From Bifidobacteriaceae bacterium (lineage in GTDB: Bacteria > Actinomycetota > Actinomycetes > Actinomycetales > Bifidobacteriaceae), in contig JALCQD010000001.1 of the NCBI GenBank assembly GCA_022651005.1, positions 372,001 to 436,000 on the forward strand: a stretch of DNA of 64,000 nucleotides, written 5' to 3'. Numbering within the stretch: the stretch's first letter is position 1; each line of letters starts with the position of its first letter. Shown here in pieces: positions 19,028 through 28,213 of this stretch. Position numbers and translations under genes: made by a program. A model generated the notes under the pieces. It did no database searches, had not been told where the DNA came from, and was given only the letters and a program-made list of their open reading frames with translations.

Positions 19028-19253
19028 TTGTATCTCCTCGTAGTGGTCAAACTCCTACGAGGACGATTCGCGCTGTTCGCGCTAACCGCGGTACCACCTC
19101 GCTTACCGATTGCCCGCGCGCTGTGCGCGCACTGCAGACGGCCGCTCAAAACAGGCTTTGACGGGCCTTATGCGCCGGGTCTAATGAGAATCTTTCAGCT
19201 GATTCTGTTCTTCCGGAAGCTCCCCGCTGATAACGGATCACTGCCAACTTCTG
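19028..19253 (-). promoter_or_regulatory. Translational T-box leader of ileS
   Basis: The minus-strand leader holds the T-box sequence AGGTGGTACCGCG (plus coordinates 19087-19099), which pairs with the uncharged tRNA acceptor end. A compact stem I contains a GTTATCAGCG loop with the Ile codon ATC at 19231-19229 as likely specifier. Near the start codon, CCTCGTAG (19062-19055) can pair with CTACGAGG (19043-19036), masking the ribosome site; the T-box-tRNA interaction would favour the open form. No T-run terminator is present, so control is translational, as known for ultrashort actinobacterial ileS T-boxes. Confidence 0.9.
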
Positions 19254-19259
19254 GTGTGC

Positions 19260-19265
19260 ATCTTA
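19260..19265 (-). promoter_or_regulatory. Probable -10 box (TAAGAT) for ileS leader
   Basis: TAAGAT on the minus strand lies just upstream of the first T-box stem, at a distance that would start the RNA near position 19253. A convincing -35 is not seen. Confidence 0.4.
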
Positions 19266-19501
19266 ACACTGTGCCGCAGACACTGATGGCTGAATCTCAC
19301 ACTAATTTCGCGAGTAGTGCGAAAATGAGCGCACTATTGTCAACGTTCGTCTACAACCGATTTGTCACCATGCCAAAAAAAAATCTATACTGCTTTTGAA
19401 ACTTGTATCAGGTTTTGCACTTACTCTAGTTCACACTGGCTGCCACTGACGAGTGGCTTATTAATAACAATGAAGTTATTGATGAATGGGATGGAATAGA
19501 A

Positions 19502-19828
19502 ATGAAGAGAACTCACAAAGGGTTGATCGCCATATTGGCATCAATAGCCTTTGCATTATCACCTGCAATAGCAGCAAACGCTGACGCACTAAAAGTGTAT
19601 GAAAACATTAAGTTGAAAGGTGCGTCACTAACTTCTTCCAAATGCACAGTCGACTTAGTTGACAATATTTATGACTCCGGAACATGGAGGGGGGCAGCTG
19701 ATCACACAAGTATTTGGAATAACACAATTATTTTTGGCGATGAGAAAATTGGCACAATTTATAATAATGTGCCTCTGCTTTCATTCGTAAAAACAAATGC
19801 GGCTGATCATGCAACTTGTAATGGCTAA
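19502..19828 (+). CDS. Small secreted peptide, bacteriocin-like candidate
   Basis: A 108-aa precursor. It has a signal peptide (MKRTHKG, then a hydrophobic core) with a likely cleavage site after ANA at residue 27, giving an 81-aa mature peptide with two cysteines (C48, C106), a GTWRG element and many Asn/Ile/Thr residues. I do not recognise the family; there is only faint resemblance in layout (Sec signal, GTW element, ABC genes downstream) to lactococcin-972-type precursors, not enough for assignment. The DNA is clearly more AT-rich than its neighbours. A 13-bp hairpin follows 7 nt after the stop and precedes a lipoprotein and exporter operon, a layout typical of abundant secreted peptides. 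GGATGGA is the only ribosome-site candidate. Confidence 0.65.
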   Translation: MKRTHKGLIAILASIAFALSPAIAANADALKVYENIKLKGASLTSSKCTVDLVDNIYDSGTWRGAADHTSIWNNTIIFGDEKIGTIYNNVPLLSFVKTNAADHATCNG

Positions 19829-19835
19829 TTAGCGA

Positions 19836-19871
19836 GTTGTGTCCATCTTCCTCACAGGAGATGGACACAAC
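19836..19871 (+). terminator. 13-bp hairpin, probable attenuator in peptide operon
   Basis: GTTGTGTCCATCT (19836-19848) pairs perfectly with AGATGGACACAAC (19859-19871), loop 10 nt, followed by AAGTTTTCT. The stem is strong but the T-run short, so partial read-through into the downstream genes is expected. Confidence 0.7.
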
Positions 19872-19889
19872 AAGTTTTCTGGAGAGAAA

Positions 19890-20804
19890 ATGCACTCACC
19901 CAATAGAATTGCACAAGGAGCATCAATGCTGCTGCTCATGCCGTGCCTTTTGCTCAGTAATGCATGTGGAGCTGGACAATCAGTAGTATCCGAACATTTA
20001 TTTGAAGCAACGGATTCTCTTCTATCTCCTCCCACAGAAGTTATTCTCGGAAGAACTATCATCGAGAACCAATGCCTTCGTTCTCACAACCTGCGAATGC
20101 CGATACACTACGAAGTCACCAGAATTTCAAGAAGCGTTGCTGATGTGGGAGGTGTTTTTCGCAGCAAAGAAGATGCCCTTGCCAATGGCTACTCTTCAAC
20201 CATTAACATGTCTTCTCTCCAAAGAGCCATAGACACTTTTGAAAATTCACTTTCCGCAAAAGATAAGAAGAAGTATGACGAACTAACTGATTTCACCGGA
20301 CCTAACAAAGATCATTCATGCGTCGCAGCATCTAATAATATTATTTTCGGTTCCACAAAGATTACTTCCGACGTTCTTAACACTTTTAATGACTATGGGG
20401 CAAACAAAACTGAATCCACCCTTGAAGACAAAGATGTCCAATCGGCACTGAAGAAAATTTATTTCCCGTGCATGAATAGAGCGGGATATGAGATCTCAAA
20501 AATCGGAGAAATGTCTAAGCTCGCGCTAAAGGAGTTGGGGACATATCGTAGCCCCTCAACGAAGCCGAATAAAAAAGAACAAGAAATGGTGCTTATTGAT
20601 TATTCATGTCAAAAGCGCGCCAAACTTTTTGACATATTCCAAAAATCTCTTAAACGCACGGCAGGAAATTGGATGGCTGAAAACGAAGGAATGCTCCTCG
20701 ACCGATACGAAAAACTTCAAGCGGCGCTTAAAAGATCCAACCAAGTCATAAATGGCGAATTAACGTATGAAAACGCTACTGCTTCAGTGAAAACAACAAA
20801 ATGA
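19890..20804 (+). CDS. Putative lipoprotein, unknown family
   Basis: A 304-aa protein with a short charged N-terminus, a hydrophobic stretch and a lipobox-like LLLSNAC with C26 as the probable lipidated cysteine. ATG at 19890 is chosen for its GGAG ribosome site (19881-19884) and because it gives a proper signal peptide; an upstream ATG at 19839 would fall inside the hairpin. The mature part is hydrophilic, Lys-rich and helical, with four scattered cysteines. DNA is AT-rich, unlike the flanks. Its stop overlaps the next gene's ATG (ATGA). Position between a secreted peptide and an exporter suggests an immunity or chaperone lipoprotein, but this is inference only. Confidence 0.65.
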   Translation: MHSPNRIAQGASMLLLMPCLLLSNACGAGQSVVSEHLFEATDSLLSPPTEVILGRTIIENQCLRSHNLRMPIHYEVTRISRSVADVGGVFRSKEDALANGYSSTINMSSLQRAIDTFENSLSAKDKKKYDELTDFTGPNKDHSCVAASNNIIFGSTKITSDVLNTFNDYGANKTESTLEDKDVQSALKKIYFPCMNRAGYEISKIGEMSKLALKELGTYRSPSTKPNKKEQEMVLIDYSCQKRAKLFDIFQKSLKRTAGNWMAENEGMLLDRYEKLQAALKRSNQVINGELTYENATASVKTTK

Positions 20805-22024
20805 CATATCAATCCCAGGCCACTGAAAAGAAGAACGCCTCACGCGTATCCACTTCCATTCTCACAGTCATCGGAGGGTTTCTCCTCGTCGTTTCCACAG
20901 TGATTGCGACACTCGGCATCTCGAATTCCATCACTTCCTCAAGAATTCCCACTGAGAAAACACCTACTGCCACGATCACAACCGGCATCGTGGAACAAAA
21001 GATTAACGCCTCCCTGATTGCCCAACCCGCCGCCATCATCGATGTGGGCGCCGAGGGCACAGTGACACAAAAGGGAGTTGCAAAGGGCGGCATCATCAAA
21101 GAGGGCGGCATCATCGGCGTGGTGAATGAGCGACCGATTTTTCTGGCTCAAGGCGCTATCCCGATGTACCGCACGCTCACCACAGGTGCCACCGGCAAGG
21201 ACGTGGAACAGTTGCAAAGCACCCTCAAACGCTTGGGATACGCGGTGAGCGACGCCGCGGGTTCTTACCGCTCGTCCACCGCATGGTCCGTCGCCGCATG
21301 GTATAGCGATCGTGGATTCACGCCCGTGGATTCGGGCGGCGGCACACTCGCTCGTAACGCTTGGGGTCAAGCCGCGGTCCCACAGAGAGAGCTAGTTTTC
21401 CTCGCCTCCACTCCCGCAAACGCAAAAACTGCATGCGGCATCACGGGCGCACAGGTCCAAGGCCCACTGTGCTCACTAGAAACGGAAAAACGCGAATATG
21501 TGATCAAGGTAGCAACGGGGCTCACCACAGATGCCAAAAAACTCGAAGGTCTCACTGTTCATCTTGCTCTCGACAAGGTCATCTCAGCACAAGTCGGTAG
21601 TGAAAAAACAACTGCGGATGCCGATGCACAGAACGTGCCAACGGACGCATTGGACTCGGACGATAACGCCAACGCCTCGTCCAGTACAGGTGACGCAGCC
21701 AGCGGCAGCGACGCAGATCAGTACCGTTATTTTTCTCTCATCCTCCCCGAGAAGAAGACACTGCCTCGTTCAAGTGACGGAGCAAGCGCCACCATCATCG
21801 CGCGGAGCAGCGGGAAGAAGGGTTTTCTCGTCGCTTCCGTGGCGCTGCACAACAACGGTTCCAACGATTCCTATTGGATTGAGACAACAGACGAAACGCA
21901 CGTGCCCGTCACGGTAGGAATGTGTTACGAGGGTCAATGCGCCCTCACCGGCGACAAAATACATAGCGGGATGGCCGTCATGCTGCCGAAAAGCGCGGCA
22001 CCCACAACGGAATCGCAGGAATGA
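20801..22024 (+). CDS. Membrane adaptor protein with peptidoglycan-binding domain (MFP-like)
   Basis: A 407-aa protein with one N-terminal transmembrane helix (about 18-41), a beta-rich region, and a peptidoglycan-binding-1 domain around 126-176 (TGATGKDVEQLQSTLKRLGY). A strand-rich adaptor region follows, with an Asp/Ser/Ala-rich insertion near 280-305. This matches the adaptor subunit commonly paired with MacB-type ABC exporters in Gram-positives, where the domain would tether the complex to the wall. Translationally coupled on both sides by ATGA overlaps. Function inferred from architecture and neighbours; cargo unknown. Confidence 0.8.
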   Translation: MTYQSQATEKKNASRVSTSILTVIGGFLLVVSTVIATLGISNSITSSRIPTEKTPTATITTGIVEQKINASLIAQPAAIIDVGAEGTVTQKGVAKGGIIKEGGIIGVVNERPIFLAQGAIPMYRTLTTGATGKDVEQLQSTLKRLGYAVSDAAGSYRSSTAWSVAAWYSDRGFTPVDSGGGTLARNAWGQAAVPQRELVFLASTPANAKTACGITGAQVQGPLCSLETEKREYVIKVATGLTTDAKKLEGLTVHLALDKVISAQVGSEKTTADADAQNVPTDALDSDDNANASSSTGDAASGSDADQYRYFSLILPEKKTLPRSSDGASATIIARSSGKKGFLVASVALHNNGSNDSYWIETTDETHVPVTVGMCYEGQCALTGDKIHSGMAVMLPKSAAPTTESQE

Positions 22025-22731
22025 TGGCACACGCCAGAAGCAACGCCGCCCCTCCCCTCGTCCTCATGAGTGGTATTACGCAACAATTCCCTCCGAATAC
22101 CACAGCATTGGAAAACGTTAGCCTCAGCCTTGACCATGGCCAATCATTGGCGATCGTCGGTCCTTCAGGCTCGGGGAAGTCAACGCTTCTGGCGATACTG
22201 GGACTGTTGGAAAAGCCAGATGGCGGAGACTACATTCTCGACGGACGAGCACTTGGAAAACTCTCTGCGACAGATCTTGCCCAAATTCGTAAAAATGATA
22301 TCGGCTACGTGTTCCAGTCTTTCAACCTCATCGACTATCTCAGCGTGGAAGAGAACATTCTCTATGCACTCACAATCAAAGGCATACGCGGTTCACAAGC
22401 ACGCGATCGGATGCACAGAGCTCTTGAGAACGTCGGGCTTTTGCATCGCCGAAACGCCAGTCCCTCTACGCTATCTGGCGGTGAGCAGCAACGTACCGCC
22501 ATCGCACGAGCCATCGTCACGGCACCAAAGCTGTTGCTGTGCGACGAGCCGACCGGCAATCTCGACAGCGCAAACTCCAACATAATCCTCCATCTCATCC
22601 TTGATTCCGTCGCCGCAAATAACGCCGTCATCATCGTGACACATGACGAACACATTGCCGCTGCCTGCACGCGCCGGGTGGTGCTGCGCGACGGACATTT
22701 ACGTGAGACGCCGGGAGGAGGCACGTTATGA
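22021..22731 (+). CDS. ABC transporter ATP-binding protein (MacB/LolD type)
   Basis: A 236-aa ATPase with Walker A GPSGSGKS (47-54), a Q-loop in [13 protein letters not shown], signature [14 protein letters not shown], Walker [13 protein letters not shown] and a switch histidine in IIVTHDE. The sequence around the Q-loop is typical of the MacB/LolD/FtsE branch that powers extracytoplasmic mechanotransmission rather than transmembrane uptake. Its ATG overlaps the adaptor's stop, and its own stop overlaps the permease ATG, so the complex is produced stoichiometrically. Confidence 0.93.
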
Positions 22732-23903
22732 GGGATCTTCTCGCCCGAGCCGCTGTGACGCTTGTGCGACGCTCGTTTCGAAATGCGCTAACACTCATCG
22801 CCATCGTTTTAAGCGCCACCACCATCACCGCACTGTTTGGCATCACAGCGGGTTCTTCCGCTCAGACAGCCGAGCGGTTCTCACAACTGGATTCCCCGAT
22901 AATTCAAGCTACGCTGCCTGCAACCGAATGGGAAAACTCCGAAAACGATATCCTTCAGCGCCTTGTGGGCTTTACGAACATCACACGCGCGGGGACCCTT
23001 GACTTGCCTCAAGACACGGCGAGTTCGCTCACCGTCACTGCACCGCGCTGGGGCACGAGCATCAAAACCAATATTGCAGTGGCCACTGCCCAGGGACTCA
23101 TGGCTCGGCAAGCCAGCATCACTTCCGGAAGCTATCCCGTGAGTGAATCAGTCTCAGCGAGAGATCCCTATACCGTGTCACTCGGGAGCAGACTCGCCTC
23201 GGAGCTTGGGGTCACTGCGAGCGTCAATCAAGGCTTGTCCGCACGCGTGAGCCTCAACGGTACTGAAATGGCAGTTACCGGAATCCTGCAAGACGCTGAG
23301 AACCAGTCAGAGTTGAGCACCGCCGTCGTCGTCACACCACAAACCGCCGCACTCCTGGGACTTCTTCCACCCAACAGGACACTCCAAATTCGCGTCACCG
23401 AGAACGCCGCGAGTACAGTGGGATCGCTCCTAGGGCTTGCGTTGCACCCGCAGGACGCGGAAGCTGTGCCACTGAAATATCCAGCGTCACCTGAGAAGTT
23501 GCGCGCAAGTCTCATGCAGGATTCGCAAAATCTCACGCTCATTATCTGCGTCATCATGGCGATAGTGAGTGCTTTCAGCATCATCAATACCATGCAGATT
23601 GCGGTGACGGAACGCCGCCGTGAAATTGGCATTTCGCTCGCGCTCGGGCTTAGCGGAAAAGACATATCGATACAATTTCTGTTGGAATCAATGTTGCTCG
23701 GAACACTTGGCGGTTTCATCGGAATGTTAATCGGGTCCGTAATCGTTGCGGGGGCCAGCCTGCTGCTTTTCTGGCCGTACATCTTACCCCAAGAAGTACT
23801 ACTCATTCCTGTAGCAGGCATTATTATCGGCGCATTGGCAGGACTCATACCTGCAATTCGTGCTGCTCGAATCGATCCAGTTGAACTCCTCAGGAGCACA
23901 TGA
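22728..23903 (+). CDS. ABC transporter permease (MacB/FtsX type)
   Basis: A 391-aa permease with one N-terminal helix, a large extracytoplasmic domain (about residues 40-265) and three C-terminal helices, the FtsX/MacB layout. Conserved features include [19 protein letters not shown] in the cytoplasmic coupling loop and the ending [13 protein letters not shown]. It completes the adaptor-ATPase-permease exporter. Family knowledge supports export or extraction of peptides or lipids at the membrane surface; the adjacent secreted peptide is the natural candidate cargo or the agent against which the pump protects. Confidence 0.92.
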
Positions 23904-23915
23904 GTCGAGCTCCTG
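23891..23915 (+). terminator. Hairpin over the end of the exporter operon
   Basis: CAGGAGC (23891-23897) pairs with GCTCCTG (23909-23915), overlapping the permease stop. No T-run follows, so terminator function is tentative; the next gene is convergent. Confidence 0.35.
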
Positions 23916-23921
23916 ACAGAA

Positions 23922-25023: not shown

Positions 25024-26940
25024 CTACGGACCCGTGACAAGATTCCAGGTGAGATTCCCGGAATACTGCCCAGCCCCTAAGGTCACCGGCAGATTCGTCA
25101 GCGTCGCTTTGCTCACCGTGAGGCTGAAGTCACGTGCCGCATCCGAGGTCGCATCGGTATCTGCCGCAACGGGCGCCACAGTGACGGGCGTTCCGGACGT
25201 GAGATTCACCGTGGAATCGACGGTGAGATTCCCGGCAGTCCCCGTAATCTGCAATGTCAGGTCGGGCGTGAACGTAGCCGAACCAGATTCGGAACCCGCG
25301 CTCCACTGCGAGGCCTCCACGGTGATGTGCTGATTCGCACCGAGCGTACCGGTCATCGTCAACTTTGACGTCGACTCGACCGGCGTGCCCTTGTACAGTT
25401 GCTCGATACCTATGGAGCCAAAGTCGAGAGATCCCGTGACCTTGATCGAGCTGATGGGAGTATTGGCGAGAGTGAGCATGTTTCCGAGAGCCGCCTTGAC
25501 GTCGGCATCCGTAGTGGAGTCGATCACCTTTTGCAGGTTTGCCTTGTCTTTATCGCTGAGCCCCTGCACAGACGTTGCGCTCTTGGACATGATCGCCTCA
25601 AGGATTCCTGCCGTTGGCGTCAGCGGCGAATACTTGTGGGAGTCATCGGCGGAATAGGCAAGCCATGCGGAAAGGACAGACGTATCGATGCGATCTGCCA
25701 CGGATTCCAATCCCTTGACCGTGAGCGTTCCACGCCACGTGGTGTCTGAAATGGCCGCGATGAGCGTGGCGGAAAGAACGGACTGGTCGATGGTGATGCT
25801 GGCACCATTCGTTTCGATGGCCTTTTCCAGAACGAAAAGGGTGTTCTTGTCCTCGTCACTGATATCGAGATTGCCCGAAAGATCGAGCACCGCATTAGAA
25901 TTGCTGAGAATGTTTTGGAAAAAACCGCCATTCTGGTAATTCAGCGTGCTGAGGTCATTGCCGTTGAGGTAGAGCCGCGACACGGTCTGTGCCGCCACGG
26001 AAAGCAGCGTGGCGTCGATGGCGTGGATGTCGTTGTTATCCAGATACAGAGCGTCGAGATTCGGAGCTCCCAAAGGGCCCATCTGGAACCAGTTTGCAGC
26101 CGAATCAGTGCAGCTTTGCGACGAGTCACTATTGGCGCATGCCTGCGAATCAATGCCGATGCCGTTGTATCCCAATTTGAGAGTCGTCAGCTTGCTCAGG
26201 GCCTTGCCCTGCAACAGGGAGAGCAGTTTCAGGCGGATTCCTGGGAATGTTGTGGCGCTCAGGTCTACCTGAGACAGTAAACCCGTGAGATCGATTGTGG
26301 TGGCCGACACCGCACTATTGGCAATCGCAATGAGAGCATTGAATGCGGGGGTGGGTGTATTCCATGAGTTCGCAGCGCCACTTGCAGTCGTGTATTTGGG
26401 AACGCCATCCGTCAGGATTTTCTGAGTCATGGAGGCATCTGTCCACAAGTCGTATCGCAGTACGGCATCCGAACGAATAGACGACTCATCGGCGGTGAGA
26501 ACCTGTTGGGGATTAGTGGCACCCTCCTGCCAGATTGCCGCAGCGCCACTGATGATTTTCCCGACCCATGCTGCCACCGTTGTGTTGGTCGTCGAATCAC
26601 CGGCCGCCGTACGGTCGGCCAGACTGAAAACCGTCATCTTCTGCACGTCCGCCACCGTCATGGCCGCGGCCGTGATGCCGTCCTTGCAGGGAGCTTTGCC
26701 GTCTGTCATGAGCGAGTTGTCGCAGATCACCCGCACCACGTTTTCGGGAATCCCGTAAGACACAAGCGTGGCATTTGGGTATGCCGCAGCCGCCGAAGCA
26801 GAGGGCACAACGCCGCCGGCAAAAAAGATGACAGCAATCACCATAGCGAGAAAAGGGGTCACCGCGTCGAGAGTCGCACGACGCCGGCGAGGCCGCCCGT
26901 GTGTGCCATGCGTCTGCTGCGCGATGATCTGCTGCCTCAT
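25024..26940 (-). CDS. Leucine-rich-repeat WxL-domain surface protein
   Basis: A 638-aa secreted protein. The ATG at 26940 is preferred (MRQQIIAQ, then an Arg-rich stretch and a signal peptide ending near ASA-AAA) because it overlaps the upstream gene's stop as ATGA. Leucine-rich repeats are visible in the first half (LDALYLDNNDIHAI, VSRLYLNGNDLSTL, LDLSGNLDIS), giving an internalin-like layout. The C-terminal about 170 residues are beta-rich and end with a WxL motif, LTWNLVTGP (W632). The first WxL-type motif reads FSLTV (F605), so the first Trp is replaced. WxL domains bind peptidoglycan non-covalently. Coupled to the DUF916/DUF3324 gene, its expected partner. Confidence 0.82.
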   Translation of the reverse strand: MRQQIIAQQTHGTHGRPRRRRATLDAVTPFLAMVIAVIFFAGGVVPSASAAAAYPNATLVSYGIPENVVRVICDNSLMTDGKAPCKDGITAAAMTVADVQKMTVFSLADRTAAGDSTTNTTVAAWVGKIISGAAAIWQEGATNPQQVLTADESSIRSDAVLRYDLWTDASMTQKILTDGVPKYTTASGAANSWNTPTPAFNALIAIANSAVSATTIDLTGLLSQVDLSATTFPGIRLKLLSLLQGKALSKLTTLKLGYNGIGIDSQACANSDSSQSCTDSAANWFQMGPLGAPNLDALYLDNNDIHAIDATLLSVAAQTVSRLYLNGNDLSTLNYQNGGFFQNILSNSNAVLDLSGNLDISDEDKNTLFVLEKAIETNGASITIDQSVLSATLIAAISDTTWRGTLTVKGLESVADRIDTSVLSAWLAYSADDSHKYSPLTPTAGILEAIMSKSATSVQGLSDKDKANLQKVIDSTTDADVKAALGNMLTLANTPISSIKVTGSLDFGSIGIEQLYKGTPVESTSKLTMTGTLGANQHITVEASQWSAGSESGSATFTPDLTLQITGTAGNLTVDSTVNLTSGTPVTVAPVAADTDATSDAARDFSLTVSKATLTNLPVTLGAGQYSGNLTWNLVTGP

Positions 26941-28139
26941 GCCCGGTGCGCACCCCCGCGGCTCTTGCCATCCTCGTATCCGCTGCCACACGGTTGTGCC
27001 GCGAGTTCCGAGCGTAAACGTTTCGTTTCGTTTTGCTTGCGGCGGTAGAGCACATACGCAATGATCAACAGGATCAGGAATACGAGCGCCGCGATGATTG
27101 CCGCGTAGACCCACCAGGCAGGGCCAGGTGCGTCGCGAATCGTGCCGATGGATTCCGCCATGGACTTCGCCTTGTCGCTGCTCACCGTGACGGTTCCGTT
27201 GAATACCTTGCGATATTTGAATTTTTGACCGTTCGCACCGGTGTAGGCACCCGCAGAATCCTGAACGTAATAGGCCGTAGCCGACACGGCGTACGTGCCG
27301 GGGGTCACGTCGTCGGGAAGGGGAATCGCATAGGCGAAGGAGGAGGTCGGCGCCATTTGCATTGCGGTGGCCGACTGCTTGTAGGAGGTCTCCTCATGTC
27401 CCTTGAGGCTCGCCGTTGCGCTCACCTGCAGCTGATTGATAAAGGTTGCACGCGTATTTCTCAGTTGCAGCGTGATGCGATTTTTATAGTTGACCTGCTG
27501 CACACCCGTGGTGCCGAAAGTGAGATCCGAGGGAACGATTTTCTCGTTGTTGCGCGCCAGAACGGCGATGACATAGCGATATTTCGACGCGATGCCGATG
27601 CCCACTCCCCCACTTTTCGACGTCTTCTCAGAATTCTGATTCAGCTGCTCGAAGGCGATGCCGCCTGCCATAACGCCATCGAAAGCTGTCGCTGGCATAG
27701 TGAGCTTCGTCGTGAAACTCGTTGTTCCATTGGCGGGAATAGTCAGCGTTTGATTCTTGACACTGACGTCATCGCGAAGGTCGCGCACGAGAAGTTTCTT
27801 ATCCGTGACCGTTGATTGATAAGCGACGCTGCCAGATTCGCTTGTCTGCGCCGGCACAACCGTCGCAGACACTTTCATCGCCGCGGAGGTTTTGTTAGTG
27901 AGGGTGACCTTCATCGTTGTGGTGTGACTCGGCGCCGCCTCAATGTCAAAGTACGACGTGGTCGCTGGTCTCTGTTCAGCGGGAAGATTTGGTGTGACCG
28001 TCAGCCCGAAGCCCGCGGCATGGGCCGGCGTTATTGGGGTCGCAAAAAGGGTCGTTGCAAGTACAACGGCGAAAGCCACCGCCACAACCGCGACAGTAGC
28101 AAATACGCTTACCACACGTGAGGTCACTCGACTATGCAT
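26937..28139 (-). CDS. DUF916/DUF3324 WxL-interacting membrane protein
   Basis: A 400-aa protein with a signal peptide, two beta-sandwich regions and a single C-terminal transmembrane helix (WWVYAAIIAALVF) followed by an RRKQNETKRL cytoplasmic tail. FGLTVTPNLPAEQ at the mature N-terminus, VTLTNKTSAAMKVSATVV, and GGIAFEQL correspond to the DUF916 (WxLIP peptidoglycan-binding) part, and the following YRYVIAVLAR to KFKYRKVFNGTVTV part to DUF3324. Such proteins anchor or scaffold WxL proteins at the cell surface in Lactobacillales and Listeria. ATG at 28139 is chosen for its GGAGCGAGAAG upstream; an earlier in-frame start at 28169 is possible. Confidence 0.87.
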   Translation of the reverse strand: MHSRVTSRVVSVFATVAVVAVAFAVVLATTLFATPITPAHAAGFGLTVTPNLPAEQRPATTSYFDIEAAPSHTTTMKVTLTNKTSAAMKVSATVVPAQTSESGSVAYQSTVTDKKLLVRDLRDDVSVKNQTLTIPANGTTSFTTKLTMPATAFDGVMAGGIAFEQLNQNSEKTSKSGGVGIGIASKYRYVIAVLARNNEKIVPSDLTFGTTGVQQVNYKNRITLQLRNTRATFINQLQVSATASLKGHEETSYKQSATAMQMAPTSSFAYAIPLPDDVTPGTYAVSATAYYVQDSAGAYTGANGQKFKYRKVFNGTVTVSSDKAKSMAESIGTIRDAPGPAWWVYAAIIAALVFLILLIIAYVLYRRKQNETKRLRSELAAQPCGSGYEDGKSRGGAHRA

Positions 28140-28213
28140 CTTCTCGCTCCATGCAGAATCAAAAAACAAACGAAAGGGATTACGTCGCGCATTTCCCTCA
28201 ATAAGACGGGAAA

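Follow-up and report, generated by a model that had tools for sequence, protein, structure and literature searches.

The beta-gamma-crystallin fold has precedents in SMPI and in the Streptomyces killer toxin-like protein. SMPI, a characterised protein of the I36 type, reportedly inhibits a metalloprotease and, to our knowledge, few cases underlie the protease-inhibitor annotation of I36 proteins. Operons of the bacteriocin lactococcin 972 (Lcn972) encode a seven-helix membrane protein of the DUF1430 type, and bacteriocin activity is documented for two Lcn972-like peptides, streptococcin B and mediterrocin (PMC11796350, PMC12345188). The Bacillus pump YknWXYZ guards its host against the host's own disulfide-bonded SDP peptide toxin by expelling it (PMC4887032). 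Here, we analysed a stretch of 64,000 nucleotides from a Bifidobacteriaceae bacterium (GCA_022651005.1, an assembly of 2.16 Mb in 6 contigs; contig JALCQD010000001.1, positions 372,001 to 436,000), hereafter the window, which carries a five-gene cassette for a small secreted peptide, a lipoprotein and the adaptor, ATPase and permease of a MacAB-type pump. No description of this lipoprotein family or of the cassette architecture was found in the open-access literature.

The cassette is repeatedly inherited in Bifidobacteriaceae

An initial sequence-only reading of the window had listed the five genes, among them a 108-residue open reading frame with a Sec signal and two cysteines in its mature part, and all of them were recovered at the same positions. 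Profiles were run on a sample of genomes, which for the peptide comprised 189 genomes of the family and 396 across the phylum. The peptide profile matched 7 of the 189 family genomes (8 copies) and no other of the 396. All 8 peptide genes, distributed over three genera, were located directly upstream of a lipoprotein gene followed by adaptor, ATPase and permease, so that the five genes kept the same order in all 7 genomes. In G239, a tandem second peptide-lipoprotein pair stands before the first. The lipoprotein profile produced strong matches in the same 7 genomes and additionally in G001 and G192, as well as further weak matches. Peptide and lipoprotein co-occurred in 7 out of 7 peptide-bearing genomes (Fisher p = 2e-11, a value that ignores the kinship of the genomes), while peptide plus lipoprotein pairs accounted for 0 of 45 gene pairs in the local background.

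G001 and G192 kept the lipoprotein and the pump without the peptide, and no family genome presented the peptide without the lipoprotein. Specifically, G001 carried two tandem lipoprotein genes ahead of the pump and a third copy elsewhere, with no recognisable peptide. Peptide absence from homologous loci was restricted to these two genomes and the pump had a consistent partner in the lipoprotein. A cognate pair that is inherited together, with a candidate immunity gene that is also found alone, is the pattern of a bacteriocin-immunity module. The cassette flanks differed between genomes, except in G231, whose locus is a near-copy of that of G066. Altogether, these results confirm that the five-gene cassette is real and repeatedly inherited.

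The secreted peptide is related by profile to I36 proteins

The Sec signal of the peptide is expected to be cut after ANA (residue 27), leaving a mature peptide of 81 amino acids (about 8.8 kDa, isoelectric point 5.4) whose two cysteines are Cys48 and Cys106. The 8 peptides have in common the motif L-x-[LVIM]-[YW]-x6-G...C..D..DN[IV]YDSG....[TS][IV]W[ND]...GD..I....F...[NTD][AT]ADH. Both G239 peptides present a Cys before the WNNT motif and a Thr at the usual position of the C-terminal Cys, and one of them has Cys as its last residue, which is what a shifted disulfide partner would look like.

Searches of Pfam retrieved no match for any of the 8 members, and NCBIfam retrieved none for the window peptide. 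The best sequence match in the PDB was 2KP5 (E 0.9, not significant), which we take to be hahellin, a beta-gamma-crystallin. When profiles were compared, the peptide aligned to general actinobacterial I36 domains with an hhalign score of 20.5 over 75 columns, which none of 150 column shuffles reached. The score rose to 31.2 with lipoprotein-linked I36 domains, and none of 200 shuffles reached it (maximum 18.2). The initial view of the peptide as unlike any known family thus did not hold. We call it a divergent Inhibitor_I36-like peptide of the beta-gamma-crystallin type, with a putative fold; AlphaFold (AF2) run without an alignment gave it a predicted local distance difference test (pLDDT) score of 45. 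Other candidate relatives were rejected. Membership in Lactococcin_972 was dismissed, as neither the peptide nor its family members matched PF09683 or TIGR01653 and the profile score was reached by 5 out of 150 shuffles. Weak matches in Halobacterium (E 0.1) fell inside arcD and were discarded, and the one match from the contig scan (L005) was set aside, since it covered only residues 1-54, which comprise the signal peptide and the beginning of the mature peptide. The phage, plasmid and viral collections contained no relatives of the peptide.

The lipoprotein carries conserved cysteines

Cys26, the lipobox cysteine, is invariant in the lipoprotein, and the motif C[ML]xxx[GN][YL] occurs twice in the window protein (CLRSHNL and CMNRAGY). 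The 11 close relatives kept the lipobox Cys and four others, and among 17 relatives with identities down to 12%, Cys26, 62, 194 and 240 were always kept and Cys144 nearly always. The motif C[ML]xxx[GN][YFL] was present in 25 out of 29 lipoproteins encoded upstream of adaptors of this type versus 10 out of 202 other genes (p 2e-21, an optimistic value because the regular expression was built on the same sequences). No Pfam family covers the lipoprotein, a sequence search of its profile against solved structures returned nothing convincing and AlphaFold without an alignment gave a pLDDT of 36. The lipoprotein branch found with Lcn972-like peptides was related to the branch of the window (hhalign 35.9; null maximum 15.8, 0 out of 100). 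The lipoprotein is a member of a large uncatalogued family. In addition, peptide divergence followed the N-terminal half of the lipoprotein (permutation p 0.019) and not the C-terminal half (p 0.21; n = 7).

The tandem lipoprotein genes of G239 (L064, 8314-9237 and 10073-10993) have the same DNA sequence for about 360 bp in their 3′ part and are about 60% alike 5′ of that, as after a recent gene conversion. In G231 (L061, 7469-8425), the lipoprotein gene appears frameshifted, or carries a sequencing error, beside an intact peptide gene. Several tandem lipoproteins of the Lcn972-associated branch were also seen with no evident peptide (L101, 3554-6526; L099, 7503-10039); these could be immunity arrays.

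Related lipoproteins adjoin I36 and other secreted peptides

We gathered 29 actinobacterial loci by adaptor similarity across the order. The gene upstream of the adaptor encoded a lipoprotein in most of them, often preceded by a small Sec peptide, and comparison of 13 partner peptides resolved 8 clusters without mutual similarity. In G205 (L146), a peptide matching Pfam Lactococcin_972 (44.7 bits, cut-off 22) was followed by lipoprotein, adaptor, ATPase and permease. The lipoprotein profile matched in 74 out of 317 genomes. When this search was combined with an independent one for I36 across Actinomycetes, 29 I36 genes (25 genomes) lay directly upstream of a lipoprotein match on the same strand, where 0.02 were expected. 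Inspection of 20 such loci showed that an I36 gene adjoined the lipoprotein gene in 19, including 5 out of the 6 loci that had been picked by the lipoprotein alone. The adaptor was present in 4 of the 20 loci outside the family; G661 (L231) displayed the full five-gene order with a genuine I36 peptide. Across L219-L238, the I36 gene and the Cys-lipoprotein gene make up a two-gene unit, mostly without a pump, and three I36 genes stand in a row in L232.

Within the family, Pfam Lactococcin_972 was found above its cut-off in 24 out of 189 genomes, and the loci fetched mostly had the canonical order of peptide, membrane protein and ATPase. Response regulators of the LuxR type adjoin some cassettes according to Pfam (L062, 8174-8965; L064, 4592-5203; L146, 9100-9738), and others were recognised by eye near peptide cassettes or Lcn972 loci (L093, L094, L136 and L140). 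Their position is as in regulated bacteriocin production, by analogy. None of these regulators was seen beside the cassette of the window.

A probable toxin/immunity module and its alternatives

We consider it reasonably probable that the cassette works as a toxin/immunity module of the bacteriocin kind, to which the pump is an accessory; from the sequences and their distribution we infer toxicity, immunity, target and direction of transport. The lipoprotein behaves like an immunity protein because it always accompanies the peptide, persists without it and follows the divergence of the peptide in its N-terminal half. The adaptor follows in only 4 of the 20 loci, so we take the peptide-lipoprotein pair as the core, to which the pump has been added. 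The AT-rich pair appears to be an exchangeable head of the cassette. The peptide would leave the cell by the Sec route, shed its signal peptide and fold outside into a small, disulfide-bonded protein of the I36/beta-gamma-crystallin type that may act on the envelope of related bacteria. On the outer face of the producer membrane, the lipoprotein would bind and neutralise its cognate peptide, probably via the N-terminal half, and the adaptor-ATPase-permease complex could drive the peptide away from the membrane or across the wall, by comparison with YknWXYZ and SDP in Bacillus. The hairpin that follows the peptide gene probably lifts peptide output above that of the immunity and pump genes.

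The sequence-only reading had proposed a peptide toxin with lipoprotein immunity and a self-protection pump. Of the schemes considered, this proposal agrees best with the comparative evidence: the pair is inseparable in one direction only, its members diversify together and a recognised bacteriocin takes the peptide slot of one sister cassette. An exporter role of the pump is doubtful, however, given that the peptide carries a Sec signal of its own and that most I36-lipoprotein pairs inspected outside the family are pump-less. Several points weigh against a toxin/immunity module with an accessory pump. The adaptor was not found in 16 of the 20 loci outside the family, which makes the part of the pump a loose one, and the role of the pump is the weakest step of the scheme. 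The bridge to Lactococcin_972 is one locus (G205/L146), and the covariation of peptide and lipoprotein rests on a small set of 7 pairs. Finally, the antibacterial role of the I36-like members of the pairs is predicted, and the known I36 protein, SMPI, is described as a metalloprotease inhibitor.

This last point leads to the principal rival, a protease-inhibitor shield, in which the I36-like peptide would block host or competitor proteases, the lipoprotein would be its surface anchor or receptor and the pump an unrelated stress efflux system. The nearest profile of the peptide is indeed Pfam Inhibitor_I36, which takes its name from a metalloprotease inhibitor, and pump-less I36-lipoprotein pairs are common. 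However, lipoproteins of this superfamily also stand beside a Lactococcin_972 bacteriocin and further unrelated peptides, and lipoproteins are retained without a peptide, which fits immunity better than anchoring; we regard a shield as unlikely.

We hold each of two further schemes to be very unlikely. In the first, a signalling pair, the lipoprotein would be the receptor for a cue provided by the secreted peptide, and the FtsX-type transporter, in a BceAB-like manner, would pass the signal on or remove the peptide. The LuxR-type response regulators that adjoin several cassettes would suit this scheme, and transporters of the FtsX type frequently act as sensors instead of moving a substrate. 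Nevertheless, a peptide of about 80 amino acids with conserved cysteines is unlike the usual autoinducers, no regulator was seen beside the cassette of the window and the transporter is missing from most pairs inspected outside the family. Alternatively, the ABC complex would export the peptide, with the lipoprotein aiding its folding or release, as the 4-base overlaps that tie the lipoprotein gene tightly to the pump might suggest. A complete Sec signal on the peptide and the retention of lipoprotein and pump without the peptide in G001 and G192 argue against such a secretion operon. Moreover, most I36-lipoprotein pairs inspected outside the family have no pump, and therefore the pump is probably not the secretion route.

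Extending the toxin/immunity interpretation, we tentatively propose, with a little less than even confidence, that many actinobacterial 'peptidase inhibitor I36' proteins are released by the cell as toxins against other bacteria and that each is paired with a lipoprotein for immunity. These lipoproteins would form a single uncatalogued Cys4 superfamily, which in addition serves bacteriocins of the Lactococcin_972 type and other unrelated peptides, the cassette of the window being a version that captured a MacAB-type pump. If true, this would provide a function for a large class of I36 proteins and point to narrow-spectrum peptides in the bacterial family of the window. The lipoprotein would then also be a search handle for hidden toxin/immunity pairs, having marked unrelated small secreted peptides, mostly without a Pfam match, across the phylum.

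Layout, composition and genomic slot of the locus

The features of the cassette are collected in Table 1. For the lipoprotein, the ATG start at 19890 (304 amino acids) was preferred over a GTG at 19839. As the sequence-only reading had described, the genes downstream of the peptide are tightly coupled, with 4-base overlaps at the lipoprotein/adaptor, adaptor/ATPase and ATPase/permease junctions. PG_binding_1 matched the adaptor weakly, just under the cut-off (22.7 bits versus 23), the ATPase matched ABC_tran (121 bits) and had L_ocin_972_ABC as its best NCBIfam model (208 bits, below the cut-off of 254.85), and the permease matched FtsX and MacB_PCD. An adaptor, an ATP-binding cassette (ABC) ATPase and a MacB_PCD plus FtsX permease in one operon are the composition of a tripartite pump of the MacAB/YknXYZ type.

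Table 1. Features of the peptide-lipoprotein-pump cassette (window positions)
Feature	Position	Strand	Remarks
Secreted peptide gene, 108 aa (amino acids)	19502..19828	+	Signal peptide 19502-19582; mature 81 aa; putative divergent I36/beta-gamma-crystallin type
15-bp hairpin, then AAGTTTTC	19836..19871	+	Between peptide gene and remaining genes
Cys4 lipoprotein, 304 aa	19890..20804	+	Lipobox ...LSNAC; proposed immunity protein
Membrane-anchored adaptor, MacA/YknX-like, peptidoglycan-binding domain	20801..22024	+	
ABC ATPase, LolD/MacB type	22021..22731	+	Walker A, signature and Walker B intact
FtsX/MacB-type permease with MacB_PCD extracellular domain	22728..23903	+	

The peptide and lipoprotein genes are separated by 61 bases that contain the hairpin, whose strength, also noted initially, was borne out by a z of -4.9. 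Strong hairpins of unrelated sequence occupy the same position in G041 and in the near-identical G066 and G231 loci, and G171 has a weaker one. The hairpin is a probable partial terminator or messenger RNA stabiliser between the peptide and the rest. The guanine-plus-cytosine (GC) content is 39% in the peptide gene, 42% in the lipoprotein gene and 55-56% in the pump genes, against 57.7% in the window, so that the description of the locus as an AT-rich island applied to the first two genes but not to the pump. The gradient from peptide through lipoprotein to pump was found again in the 5 relatives measured.

The cassette lies between ileS and an alpha/beta hydrolase gene, in an interval where both congeners hold unrelated genes (window 19028-23921 compared with L187 7497-11700 and L188 7868-12100). 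The slot contains a PIN-type gene, an isochorismatase-like gene and ABC-2 genes in G002, as read by eye. In G001, it contains a major facilitator superfamily (MFS)-like gene and one for a surface protein with repeats. This interval is a variable accessory slot. Before ileS lies a divergent T-box leader (19056-19250, minus strand; Rfam RF00230, 28.8 bits against a gathering score of 93, E 1.5e-4). Elsewhere in the window, a WxL-interacting protein with WxLIP domains (26937-28169, minus strand) adjoins a 696-residue open reading frame without a Pfam match (25024-27114, minus strand).

Comparison with known systems

Lactococcin 972 (PF09683) operons resemble the cassette in their small, beta-rich, Sec-secreted peptide, their dedicated ABC genes and their patchy spread in the same genomes, and in G205 a PF09683 peptide takes the peptide slot of the window-type architecture. 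In contrast, canonical lactococcin 972 loci have a membrane protein of about 700 amino acids and an ATPase, with no lipoprotein and no adaptor. Instead of the arrangement of a seven-helix, DUF1430-type immunity protein and an ATPase, the cassette presents lipoprotein, adaptor, ATPase and FtsX permease. Inhibitor_I36 proteins (PF03995) share with the window peptide the start motif L-x-[LVIM]-[YW]-x6-G, a later WNNT-like motif and the common lipoprotein partner, whereas the window peptide is shorter (81 amino acids when mature), has no Pfam match and displays a Cys pattern of its own. Similarly, the YknWXYZ pump of Bacillus and MacAB pumps consist, like that of the window, of an adaptor, a LolD/MacB-type ATPase and a MacB-type permease. 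Unlike YknWXYZ, the pump of the window has a peptidoglycan-binding domain in its adaptor, a lipoprotein gene in the place of YknW and the gene for its presumed cargo in the same operon.
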